Assembly (NCBI GenBank): GCA_032622095.1
Contig: CP136063.1
Coordinates: 206,075,934 to 206,139,933, forward strand
DNA: 64,000 bases
DNA from: Siphonodentalium dalli
Taxonomy: Eukaryota > Mollusca > Scaphopoda > Gadilida > Siphonodentaliidae
Reading direction: 5' to 3'
The translations under genes and the position numbers were made by a program. The notes below the pieces were generated by a model that searched no databases, was not told the DNA's origin, and worked only from the letters and a program-made list of their open reading frames with translations. Positions 20,729 to 58,203 of the stretch are shown piece by piece; position 1 is the first letter of the stretch, and each line of letters begins with the position of its first letter.

Positions 20729-20908
20729 TTCTGCAGTGCCAAATATTGGAACCACCAAAGAATGGATACTTCGTGAACAAGAAATGTAACAACGTGTTTA
20801 ACGCTGCGTGTGGTCTGAGGTGCAAACCTGGGTATGAATTGCTGGGCAGTAGTCTGCGGATATGCCAGGAAAATCGAACATGGAGTGGAGAACCATCTCT
20901 CTGCCTGA
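20729..20908 (+). CDS. SVEP1: SVEP1-like exon: Sushi (CCP) domain 1
   Basis: One Sushi/complement-control module in one phase 1-1 exon, residues 292-350. Acceptor GACCTTTCAG|TT, donor CTGA|GTGAGT. PPKNGYF, CKPGYELLGSS and TWSGEPSLC are the hallmark Sushi strands, with the conserved Trp near the end. There are six cysteines rather than the usual four. The extra pair (KKC and AAC) is shared by all four Sushi domains here and, as I recall, by the N-terminal SVEP1 Sushi domains of vertebrates. NKKCNNVFNAACG is very SVEP1-like. Confidence 0.94.
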
Positions 20909-22318: not shown

Positions 22319-22498
22319 TGAAAACCTGCCCTCCGCTCCCAACACCAAAGAATGGGAATACGCTTTGTGATAACGATGACTTCATGTTTTCCACCGTTTG
22401 TCGATTCACCTGTGATAACGGTTACCAACTGGTCGGGTCCCGGAAACGAACATGCCTGGTGATTGCAATGTGGACCGGGATAACAACCAGGTGTAGAG
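22319..22498 (+). CDS. SVEP1: SVEP1-like exon: Sushi (CCP) domain 2
   Basis: Second Sushi module, phase 1-1, residues 352-410, again 180 bp. Acceptor CTGTTCTGTTTCAG|TG, donor TAGAG|GTAGGT. Motifs: TCPPLPTPKNG, FTCDNGYQLVGS, RTCL, then a W and closing C. Six cysteines. A foldback transposon ends 18 bp before the exon, and its 6 bp target-site duplication forms part of the polypyrimidine tract, so the branch point must lie inside the transposon. The exon itself is intact. Confidence 0.94.
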
Positions 22499-24209: not shown

Positions 24210-24410
24210 AAATCACCTGCCCTGCTCTGACGCCGGTTAAAGATGGAACAGTGGAGCCCGTGTCCTGCGTGACTGGTGACGTTGTTTCTTTTGGAACAAC
24301 CTGTTCCACGTCGTGCTCTGCTGGGTACACCCTATCGGGACCACACAACAAACAATGTACACCAGCGGGAAAGTGGATACCGGATAGCGACAAATTGAAC
24401 CAGTGCCTGG
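24210..24410 (+). CDS. SVEP1: SVEP1-like exon: Sushi (CCP) domain 3
   Basis: Third Sushi module, phase 1-1, residues 412-477. Acceptor TTGTTCTGCAG|AA, donor CCTGG|GTACGT. Motifs: ITCPALTPVKDG, SCSAGYTLSGP, QCTPAGKW, closing QC. Six cysteines. At 66 residues it is longer than domains 1 and 2 because of an insertion before the last strand; the third Sushi domain of SVEP1 is also longer in vertebrates as I recall it. The last exon bases and the donor are the seed of a minisatellite that starts at this junction (24404-24932). Confidence 0.93.
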
Positions 24411-24932
24411 GTACGTCTCCTTCCATATATATAGCCTAATAGGACCATGCGCGTGGGTACGTATCCTTTTCCATATATAGAAACATGCGAGTGGCTGGGT
24501 ACGTCTCCTTCCATATATACAGGACAATGCGAGTGGGTACGTCTCCTTTCATATATAGGACAATGCGAGTGCATGGGTACGTTTCCTTCCATATGTAGGA
24601 CCATGCGAGTGCCTGGGTACGTCTCCTTCCATATATATATAGAACCATGCGAGTGGGTACGTCTCATTCCATATATATAAATAGGACGATGCGAGTGCCT
24701 GGGTACGATTCCTTCCATATATATAGGACCATGCGAGTGCCTGGGTACGTCTCCTTCCATATATATATATAGGACGTTTCCTTCCATATATAGGACCATG
24801 CGAGTGGATACGTCTCCTTCCATATATAGGACCATGCGAGTGCCTGGGTACGTCTCCTTCCATTTATATAGGACCATGCGAGTAGTTACGTCTCCTTCCA
24901 TATGTATAGGACCATGCGAGTGGCAAATAATA
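24404..24932 (+). repeat. ~40 bp minisatellite seeded by the Sushi 3 splice donor
   Basis: Units of the form GTGCCTGGGTACGTCTCCTT, then CCATATATATAGGACCATGC and GA. The first unit spans the exon end and the donor. GGGTACG occurs ten times including the real donor, and GTGCCTGGGTACG five times. Confidence 0.9.
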
Positions 24933-25818
24933 CAGAGGTTTGGACTGAAACCTTATAACTTGTCTCGTAAAAAATGTCAGACAATATATATTATTCGTCA
25001 CGACGTGGTTGGAAATCGTGACCAATCGAAGAATAACTATAGACTGTTGATAAACTATGTACAACAACGAGTTTGAACGTCACGCACGAGTAGCGGCCAT
25101 ATTTTATTCTGTCTTTTGTGAGGCATTTTTCGCGTCTCATTAACAACTAACTAAATCGCTGTGTTATGTTGCACGGACTTCGTTTGGACACATAACATCT
25201 GTCTGACTCTAACTACTGGGCAATACTTGCCCGCCTTGGGCACGTAAAATTATAGTTTGTAATAAGTGACGAAGTGAGAAGTTTAACAATCTAAACCTCT
25301 CTATTTATTCGATCTTAAATTACACTGCTCAGCTGATTCGTGTTCTCCCATTGCAGATGGCGGCCTCTCGGTGTTCTACATAGGACCTAAGCTTCTTGAA
25401 CAGTGAAATTTGGCTCAAATTCAAATTTCACATGGATAGCACGACAAAGCGTTACAGGACTCCTAGTTGTCCGCTATGCGGTGTCATACGAGGCTCAGCG
25501 AGATTATTCTCACTTCGCCTCACATGACACCTTTCCGGCAACGAATCGCCCTGTATAGGCCTAACTTATAGTATCAGCCTGAGCCAGGACCATGAACGTC
25601 ACCAATCAAGTCTCTAACCCAAATCGTTTTTTACTTTAAATTTGTTAAAAACTTATATAAATGTTTGTCTGACGGGATAAACTAGTACATGAACTGTGTA
25701 AATTCACAATGCACATTAAAAAATCAGTAATCGTTAAAAACTCATATTTATAACTGAAATTTACTAGAAAATAGGTGTCGATTGTACCGCAATTTTGAAC
25801 ATCAAACACCTCAACTAT

Positions 25819-27010: not shown

Positions 27011-27542
27011 TTGTCACATTTACTACATCACATCCTGTAGTTGCGTCTTCTGTAAAGGTGAGTACCCTTACCCAGGTAGAATACGTTTCTTCGATAGAGA
27101 TAAGTCAACTGACCAAGTTATGCTGCTTGATTGGTATTGAAGCTATGTATGTTTCACTATATTTTGTCTTCTTTTTTTTGTGCTAAATAATGTTGTCCCC
27201 TTTTGAGTCTGTTCCACTTACGCTTAACGTATATATGTAAATATATTAATATATGTAAATATCTGCAATTGTTGGGTGATATAAAGTTAAATATATAAAT
27301 TTACAACATTATATGTATATCAGAGGTGCATGCTAAACACAATAATTGTGTACTTTGTTATAAAAGCATGCAACTTGGCACATATATACCGTACGTATGC
27401 GAACATCCCAAATGTTTTTAACATTTCCACCCGCCCATCGCAGTTCCCATGTATGGCGAACCATGACTGCGGTCGCCATCTTTTTTTTTGTGGCGAAATT
27501 GGTAGCATTTGCATTTAATGATTACATTGTGTATACTTGCAG

Positions 27543-27791
27543 ATACATCACCACCGTTCATACGATGCCCAGCAGACATAATCACCGAGACAGATAAAGA
27601 CAAGGGAACAGCCTTCCTGACGTGGGGCGTGCCGGTTGCGGTGGATAATTCCGGGTATATACCTGTCGTTACTGCTATCCCGGCAGTCGAACCTGCTGAT
27701 AACTTTCCGATCGGTGACCTAATAGTACAGTATACAGCCGAGGATCTCAGCAGAAACAAGAATTTCTGCATGTTCACCATAAAAGTCATTG
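27543..27791 (+). CDS. SVEP1: SVEP1-like exon: HYR domain 1
   Basis: Hyalin-repeat (HYR) module, an immunoglobulin-like adhesion fold; phase 1-1, residues 479-560. Acceptor TATACTTGCAG|AT, donor CATTG|GTACGT. It shows the standard HYR order: PPFIRCPADI at the start, LTWGVPVAVDNSG in the middle, FPIGDLIVQYTAEDLSRN near the end, closing with CMFTIKVI. The two cysteines are the usual disulphide pair. In SVEP1 two HYR modules follow the third Sushi domain, exactly as here. Confidence 0.94.
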
Positions 27792-31120: not shown

Positions 31121-31735
31121 CTAGCCGATGAGCCCGACGTTGTCCGGGCTATTCAAAAACCAAATTTCAAATCGATAGCTCCACCCGTTTCCGAGATCTG
31201 GTCTTCGTATGCGCGCAGCTTGCGTCGCATGGGCTCGGCGACCCGATAAAATTCGTAATCGGGGCAAGATACATTCACACACCAAATTTCAAGTCGATAG
31301 CTCCACCCGTTTACGAGATCTGGTCTGCGCATGCGCGAAGCTTGTGTCGCACGGGCTCGGCGACCCGATAAAATTCGTATCCGGGGCAAGATACATTCAC
31401 ATAGCAAATTTCAAGTCGATAGCTCCACCCGTTTGGATATCTCGTCTGCGCATGCGCTGCACGGGCGTCGCACGGGCTCGCCAATACGACAACGACGACC
31501 GCCTGGTCAAACTACACACACGTACCAAATTTCAAGTCGATAGCTCCACCCGTTTCCGATATCTCGTCTGCGCATGCGCGAAGCGGACGTCGCACGGGCT
31601 CACCAATACGACAAGGACGACCGCCTGGTCAAACTACACACACGTACCAAGTTTCGTCCCAATCGGTCGAGAATCGTAGATTTGTATAAATGACATACAG
31701 ACATACAGACAGAGGTCTTCAAAATATATATGAGA
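31121..31735 (-). mobile_element. Non-autonomous Helitron abutting Sushi 4 exon
   Basis: Same family as the element at 57331-58203: minus-strand 5' end TCTCATATAT, 3' hairpin AGCCCG/CGGGCT and terminal CTAG, flanked by A and T. It has fewer internal ~120 bp units. The 5' terminus at 31735 is 16 bp from the first base of the Sushi 4 exon. Confidence 0.87.
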
Positions 31736-51292: not shown

Positions 51293-52095
51293 TGAGGGTC
51301 AGGGAGAACAACGAGGGGTTTCCATTCCACTGAGAGGTCGTGCATCGAGTGGGCAGTCGGATATATAGTGATACGAGAGGCTTCCATTCCACTGTGAGGT
51401 CGTGCATCGAGTGGGCAGTAGGATATATAGTGATATGAAAGGTTTCCATTCGCACTGAGAGGTCGTGCATCGAGTGGGCAGTCGGGTATATAGTGATATG
51501 AGAGGTTTCCATTCGCACTGAGAGGTCGTGCATCGAGTGGGCAGTAGGATATATAGTGATATGAAAGGTTTCCATTCGCACTGAGAGGTCGTACATCGAG
51601 TGGGCAGTCGGACATCGAGTGATACGAGAGGCTTCCATTCGCACTGAAAGGTCGTGCATCGAGTGGGCAGTTCTACATCGAGTGATATGAGAGGTTTCCA
51701 TTCGCGCTGAGAGGTCGTGCATCGAGTGGGCAGTTAGACATCAAGTGATATGACAGCTTTCCATCCGCACTGAGAGGTCATGCGTCGAGTGGGCAGTCAG
51801 ACATCAAGTGATATGACAGGTTTCCATTCGCACTGAGAGGTCGTGCATCGAGTTGGCAGTCGGCCATCGAGTGATATGAGAGGTTTCCATTCGCACATAG
51901 AGGTCATGCATCGAGTGGGCAGTCATGACAGGTTTCCATCCGCACTGAGAGGTCGTGCGTCGAGTGGGCAGTTAGACATCAAGTGATATGACAGGTTTCC
52001 ATCCGCACTGAGAGGTCATGCATCGAGTGGGCAGTCGGACACCGAGTGATATGAGAGGTTTCCATTCGCACTGAGAGGTCGTGCGTCGAGTGTCG
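51293..52095. repeat. ~63 bp minisatellite, about 13 units
   Basis: Unit ACTGAGAGGTCGTGCATCGA, GTGGGCAGTCGGATATATAG, TGATATGAGAGGTTTCCATT, CGC. Most units are 62-63 bp; one near 51903-51950 is shorter. A single diverged unit lies at about 55385-55478. Confidence 0.9.
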
Positions 52096-57330: not shown

Positions 57331-58203
57331 CTAGCCGATGAGCCCGACGTTGTCCGGGCTATTCAAAAACCAAATTTCAAGTCGATAGCTCTACCCGTTT
57401 CCGAGACCTGGTCTGCGCATGCGCGACGTTGGCGTCGCACGGGCTCGGCGGCCCGATAAAATTCGTATCCGGGGCAAGATACATTCACATACCAAATTTC
57501 AAGTCGATAGCTCCACCCGTTTCCGAGATCTCGTCTGCGCATGCGCGAAGCTGGCGTCGCACGGGCTCGGCGACCCCAAATTTCAAGTCGAAAGCTCTAC
57601 CCAGCCCGACGTTGTCCGGGCTATTCAAAACCACCCGTTTCCGAGATCTGGTCTGCGCATGCGCGAAGCTGGCGTCGCACGGGCTCGGCGACCCGATAAA
57701 ATTCGTATCCGGGGCAAGATACATTCACATAGCAAATTTCAAGTCGATAGCTCCACCCGTCTCCGAGATCTCGTCTGCGCATGCGCGAAGCTGGCGTCGC
57801 ACGGGCTCGGCGACCCGATAAAATTCGTATCCGGGGAAAGATACATTCACATAGCAAATTTCAAGTCGATAGCTCCACCCGTTTCCGAGATCTCGTCTGC
57901 GCATGCGCGAAGCTGGCGTCGCACGTTCTCGGCGACCCGATAAAATTCGCATCCGGGGCAAGATACATTCACATAGCAAATTTCAAGTCGATATCTCCAC
58001 CCGTTTCCGAGATATCGTCTGCGCATGCGCGAAGCGGGTGCCGCACGGGCTCGCCAATACGACAACATCCGCCGCCTGGTCAAACTACTCGCACGTACCA
58101 AGTTTCGTCCCGATCGGTCGAGAATCGTAGATTTGTATAAATGACAAACAAACAGACAAACAGACAGACAAACAGACAGAGGTCTTCAAAAATATATATG
58201 AGA
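57331..58203 (-). mobile_element. Non-autonomous Helitron with internal GC-rich tandem units
   Basis: Read on the minus strand the element begins TCTCATATATATTTTTGAAG and ends with a hairpin (AGCCCG/CGGGCT stem) about 7 nt before a terminal CTAG. It is flanked by A on the 5' side and T on the 3' side, with no target-site duplication. These are the defining Helitron features. The body consists of ~120 bp units containing TGCGCATGCGC. No Rep/helicase coding sequence is present, so it is non-autonomous. It sits in the right arm of a large palindrome, whose left arm (around 56601-56625) keeps the empty site. Confidence 0.88.

Follow-up and report, generated by a model that had tools for sequence, protein, structure and literature searches.

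A donor-repeating minisatellite at a predicted exon-intron junction of a polydom/SVEP1-like gene in Siphonodentalium dalli

Minisatellites that carry copies of a splice donor have been described in two human genes, ABCA7 and 6-16/IFI6. The minisatellite of 6-16/IFI6, reportedly described by Turri et al. in 1995 as a source of multiple splice donor sites, is said to have a 12-bp unit and to give rise to in-frame insertions. According to the relevant passages of a published account, two of its downstream units act as donors (PMC4526556). The VNTR in intron 18 of ABCA7 starts at the GT of the exon 18 donor and is built from 25-bp units; in the corresponding parts of the report, retention of one unit, which is out of frame, amounts to 2 +/- 1% of transcripts independent of VNTR length, skipping of exon 19 increases with VNTR length, and the Discussion holds that the lower expression does not stem from the retention transcripts (PMC5954066). 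Two further cases concern repeats and splice signals in a broader sense, i.e., intron gain by tandem duplication of AGGT segments, with fission yeast introns that span several 24-bp copies, as described in sections of one paper (PMC4974935), and the MIR137 VNTR, which accompanies altered donor use with the donors lying outside the repeat, as stated in part of another (PMC6692358). Among the titles listed for literature queries, none of which named the present sequence, no paper on an array with donors in a polydom gene appeared, which is weak evidence of absence.

Host gene and layout of the array

The window, i.e., the whole stretch of 64,000 nucleotides analyzed here, originates from the scaphopod Siphonodentalium dalli (GenBank assembly GCA_032622095.1, contig CP136063.1, positions 206,075,934 to 206,139,933). 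On its + strand, the scan of 30 of the 139 listed open frames revealed domains in the order Ephrin-receptor-like, Sushi 1 to 3, HYR 1 and 2, Sushi, and Ephrin-receptor-like, which is presumably also the order in SVEP1. Judged by this order of Ephrin-receptor-like, Sushi, and HYR domains, the host gene may be polydom/SVEP1-like and would encode a large extracellular protein. Domains of these kinds are contained in polydom/SVEP1 according to the relevant part of the literature (PMC10281526). The features that surround the array are as follows:

20737 to 20904, + strand: Sushi 1 domain (Pfam)
22327 to 22494, + strand: Sushi 2 domain (Pfam)
24210 to 24410, + strand: predicted Sushi 3 exon, 201 nt, phase 1 at both ends, with AG before 24210 and GT at 24411
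27543 to 27791, + strand: predicted HYR 1 exon, the next exon found, 249 nt, phase 1 at both ends, with a donor that is also GTACGT

Sushi 3 reaches 26.9 bits with the Pfam Sushi model (cut-off, 20.7) and HYR 1 reaches 62.4 bits with the HYR model, while the Sushi domain after HYR 2 stays just under the cut-off with 20.3 bits. The predicted Sushi 3 and HYR 1 exons join in frame (KLNQCL-D-TSPPFIRCPAD). A strong donor-like site, AAGGTGAGT, is located inside intron 3 (27055-27063, GT at 27058); a hidden exon before HYR 1 that would end there appears unlikely, as no convincing acceptor was found upstream. About 290 kb downstream of the array and on the same strand, 47 Sushi matches lie in a single 2818-residue open frame (G000:C3:206394530-206402929), which may form the Sushi block of this gene.

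The array begins at the end of the Sushi 3 exon and extends into the intron:

24403 to 24919, + strand: minisatellite of 12 units of 36 to 67 nt each, the first of which begins inside the Sushi 3 exon
24402 to 24410, + strand: nine exon bases, AGTGCCTGG, common to the exon end and the repeat unit, with five copies before GTACG
24435 to 24442, + strand: eight bases, CCTAATAG, unique to unit 1 according to the unit list

Its extent is close to the interval of 24404-24932 given in the original prediction, with GTG at 24920-24922 at the right end. The successive units measure 50, 38, 42, 36, 40, 44, 42, 42, 67, 36, 42, and 38 nt; the full form has the sequence GTGCCTGGGTACGTCTCCTTCCATATATATAGGACCATGCGA (42 nt), four bases of GTGCCTGG are missing from the short forms (units 2, 4, 7, 10, and 12), and unit 9 is fused (67 nt). 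Pairs of units differ by 0 to 5 mismatches and 0 to 4 gaps, and since the units are not identical to each other, the array appears unlike a run of identical copies caused by an assembly error. Tandem Repeats Finder alone places the start at 24439 because unit 1 carries the eight extra bases, but the alignment of unit 1 with the 42-nt unit has a local score of 32, compared to at most 12 across 2000 simple shuffles. The ten occurrences of GGGTACG that had been announced were recovered on the + strand (24409-24852), as were the five within GTGCCTGGGTACG, which all lie in the array, include the exon's own copy, and represent every copy of this longer word in the window (0 in 100 shuffles). On both strands of the window, GGGTACG occurs 13 times, a number reached by none of 100 dinucleotide shuffles (mean, 3.64; maximum, 11). 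A CArG-like box, CC(A/T)6GG, had no match in 24403-24932. The opposite (-) strand contains a 206-codon open frame across the array (24332-24952), probably a by-product of the repeat.

Donor sites and the predicted outcome of their use

The proposal of many decoy 5' splice sites was confirmed at the level of the motif: the donor 9-mer TGGGTACGT is present in nine identical copies, the exon's own among them, and one further decoy differs at a single position.

24411 to 24416, + strand: first donor GTACGT, which closes the Sushi 3 exon
24437 to 24439, + strand: in-frame TAA inside CCTAATAG of unit 1, encountered by nine of nine predicted exon extensions
24457 to 24853, + strand: span of the eight decoy donors with the exact 9-mer (GT at 24457, 24499, 24537, 24577, 24617, 24657, 24745, and 24848)
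24703, + strand: GT of the decoy donor TGGGTACGA, which differs at +6

The other units contain altered sites, TGGATACG in unit 10 and AGTTACG in unit 12. Sites that score at least as high as the first donor number nine in the 530-base array versus 1.24 per 530 bases outside, and none of 1247 other counting windows holds nine of them (maximum, 6).

The comparison with other Sushi exons is based on at least 149 Sushi places in the genome (150 of 278 candidates scored), comprising the 47 in the 2818-residue frame, 2 in the window, and 100 others; Sushi 3 is absent from this listing and passes the Pfam cut-off. The best 60 of the 100 others were combined with the four Sushi exons of the window (n=64), and donors, mechanically called as the best in-frame phase-1 site, were obtained for 62 of them (none for L006 and L061). 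Among the other 61 Sushi donors called in this genome, none has its own 9-mer within 700 bases downstream. Donor strength was compared with 57 donors, i.e., without Sushi 3 and after dropping L029, L039, L046, and L056 as implausible. The matrix score of the first donor is 5.52 (median, 7.39; 8 of 57 lower), with a bias against the first donor, as all others are represented by their best-scoring in-frame site. Its pairing energy with U1 amounts to -5.6 (median, -5.9; 22 of 57 weaker). Taken by its bases, the first donor of the Sushi 3 exon is not strong, which counts against the reading that we prefer.

Folding gave a mean unpaired probability of 0.35 for the first donor versus 0.06 to 0.55 for the eight exact decoys, so that it is more open than six of them and less open than two. 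An RNA structure that hides the decoys finds no decisive support in these values. When equal donors are present in duplicate, splicing often prefers the copy closer to the 3' splice site, a tendency that in the case of nine equal 9-mers would favor the decoys. In the mechanism that we propose, the first donor would be mainly used, as it closes the 201-nt exon and adjoins that exon's own putative enhancers.

The nine possible extensions at GGGTACG donors measure 46, 88, 126, 166, 206, 246, 292, 334, and 437 nt in mixed frames, and the expectation that the exon would grow by multiples of the unit was therefore not borne out. A repeated peptide or a stop had been anticipated as the outcome. The stop was found, but the repeated peptide has to be abandoned for this allele, because the TAA in unit 1 is common to all extensions; any predicted use of a downstream donor would give only a stop. 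Units 8 and 11 are stop-free in the frame of the exon (QCLGTIPSIYIGPCECL and QCLGTSPSIYIGPCECL, respectively), and if unit 1 were replaced by a complete 42-nt unit, the latter would read through and add 14 residues. A few per cent of the transcripts would use a copy, gain the stop, and be lost to nonsense-mediated decay. A slight leakage into stop-bearing transcripts with a dominant first donor is the most likely outcome, in line with the 2 +/- 1% of transcripts that use the next copy in ABCA7 (PMC5954066).

Frequent use of the downstream donors, where each use adds a stop and more copies mean less protein, is suggested by the nine identical 9-mers, the stop in every extension, and the below-median matrix score of the first donor (5.52 versus 7.39), but it is unlikely in view of the ABCA7 VNTR, of which a copy is used at only about 2% independent of VNTR length and whose authors, in the passages concerned, do not attribute the fall in expression to such transcripts (PMC5954066). 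We are highly doubtful of a copy-number dial for protein dose, in which identical donors compete and the fraction of productive transcripts depends on the length of the array. In such a dial, any donor choice except the first would be unproductive owing to the stop in unit 1, and the eight stop-bearing bases are confined to the unit adjacent to the exon, where their effect would be greatest. The chance that the array mainly causes skipping of HYR 1 (249 nt) appears small: exon 19 skipping does increase with VNTR length in the relevant part of the ABCA7 report (PMC5954066), and the omission would be in frame, joining Sushi 3 to HYR 2 (QCL-D-RQPPTIDRC), but the ABCA7 effect may stem from GC-rich motifs of that VNTR, which the AT-rich unit of S. 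dalli need not share. Each unit might even contain a small exon of 15 to 19 nt between an acceptor-like CATATATAG that precedes GGACC and a donor that follows TGG. Eight acceptor-like ends were counted in the array by a simple pattern that leaves the sites unscored, but the pyrimidine tract is short and exons of 15 to 19 nt are usually poorly recognized, which makes this proposal scarcely credible.

Origin of the array and distribution of its unit

The unit had been described as including the exon end and the donor, and this description holds, with an exact match of the nine bases AGTGCCTGG plus GTACGT. AGTGCCTGG stands upstream of GTACG in five copies, and one additional 5' base (C), i.e., CAGTGCCTGG, leaves the exon copy alone. 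The Sushi 3 exon end is the likely source of the exon-like bases, because TGC CTG encodes the closing Cys-Leu of the domain and Sushi 1 likewise has TGCCTG just before its donor; the proposed birth from an exon-donor junction is thus well compatible with the sequence. At the borders, a short direct repeat was found:

24919 to 24922, + strand: AGTG at the right edge, repeating AGTG at the left edge (24402-24405), a possible slippage seed

The edge contexts are ATGCG-AGTG-GCAAA on the right and AACC-AGTG-CCTGG on the left, which fits an array birth by slippage between short direct repeats, but a candidate seed of only four bases counts against the proposed origin. TGG is found in the right flank (AGTGGC) as well as at the exon end (CCTGGG), and the junction AGTGGGTACG of the short forms could be due to slippage at TGG or to a later four-base deletion.

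The reading that we consider probable is that a tandem duplication at the exon-intron junction of Sushi 3 created the minisatellite and that the first donor is mainly used, with the copies giving rise to minor, stop-bearing transcripts that decay. About 42 to 50 bp across the junction of this third Sushi exon of a polydom/SVEP1-like gene would have been duplicated, with AGTG as the seed of the first slippage and with further slippage or unequal exchange behind later changes. Selection for the array itself is unlikely. An array that first arose in the intron, with the exon end later converted to match, is very improbable: the shared bases code for the conserved Cys that closes the domain, TGCCTG also ends Sushi 1, and the full exon match is present in five copies exactly at the junction. 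A paralogous exon that could serve as an outgroup was not found, as the exon peptide matched itself alone (E <= 0.001; 76 scored candidates). Intron gain by AGGT duplication was ruled out, since AGGT is absent from all 12 units listed.

In the genome (2.23 Gb, 9 contigs), a DNA search, which may pass over simple or common words and miss weak matches, placed the array at one locus. The unit core AGTGCCTGGGTACGTCTCC was found with up to two mismatches at seven places in the array and one elsewhere; up to three mismatches resulted in 47 matches versus 311 for the reversed control, so that weak matches carry no meaning. GTGCCTGGGTACG had 14 matches (5 in the array and 9 at two loci on contig C2) versus 13 for the reversed control. 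A dispersed repeat or transposon-borne satellite was rejected for the whole unit, given the single place in the DNA search and the unrelated 81-bp unit at the C2 loci. The 14-base piece GGACCATGCGAGTG of the unit is not confined to the array, with 190 matches genome-wide at up to one mismatch versus 119 for the reversed control and at least 11 in the array among the matches listed, and this counts against the explanation that we prefer.

The two C2 loci (near 2.37 Mb and 159.2 Mb of G000:C2) each contain a minisatellite of this 81-bp unit, which also holds GTGCCTGGGTACG, with 9.9 and 8.9 copies, respectively; they are inverted, 157 Mb apart, and share matching stretches of 3.3 and 3.1 kb with 97.3 and 98.6% identity. 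Other long tandem arrays of the window are located at 31151-31655, 57371-58053, and 51313-52092; a 122-bp unit is present at two places, and the third array has a 63-bp unit.

Tandem Repeats Finder reported no array spanning the donor at any of the 62 called Sushi donors, Sushi 3 included, where it missed the array because of the eight extra bases. Exon-end tandem copies were present at no fewer than 2 of these 62 exons, Sushi 3 and L057, the latter being the one locus read among eight comparison loci with an array at most 300 bases after the donor, so that two is a minimum. In L057 (G000:C6:205876109-205877334), the final ~43 nt of a Sushi exon are present in three tandem copies with spacings of 77 and 98 nt. 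It resembles the array in these exon-end copies and differs in that its two downstream copies are without a donor (CATAAAGCAAAT). In view of this second case, arrays of this kind are perhaps not rare in this genome.

Comparison with known donor-bearing minisatellites

The array resembles a classic splicing experiment carried out by nature: behind one exon, nine donors that share their nine bases stand at increasing distances, and RNA from a single animal would reveal to what extent the choice among them depends on position alone. With it, an animal with a 2.2-Gb genome joins the two human cases. Compared with AGGT-based intron gain, tandem duplication multiplies splice signals in both systems, but new introns are made from exon sequence in the published case, as far as the relevant sections describe it (PMC4974935), whereas the duplication in S. 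dalli would provide extra donors in an existing intron. The 6-16/IFI6 locus, by the partial account referred to above, shares the minisatellite with several donors and differs in that every predicted extension of Sushi 3 stops. As in the ABCA7 VNTR, in the parts of its description considered here, the array starts at the donor of an exon, here a predicted one, and its units repeat the donor; in ABCA7, a second copy is used at a low level and shifts the frame. The ABCA7 unit comprises 25 bp from the GT onwards with no exon bases described in those parts, in contrast to the AT-rich unit of about 42 bp with nine exon bases in S. dalli, and the length of the ABCA7 VNTR varies among people, whereas the array of S. 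dalli is known from one assembly.
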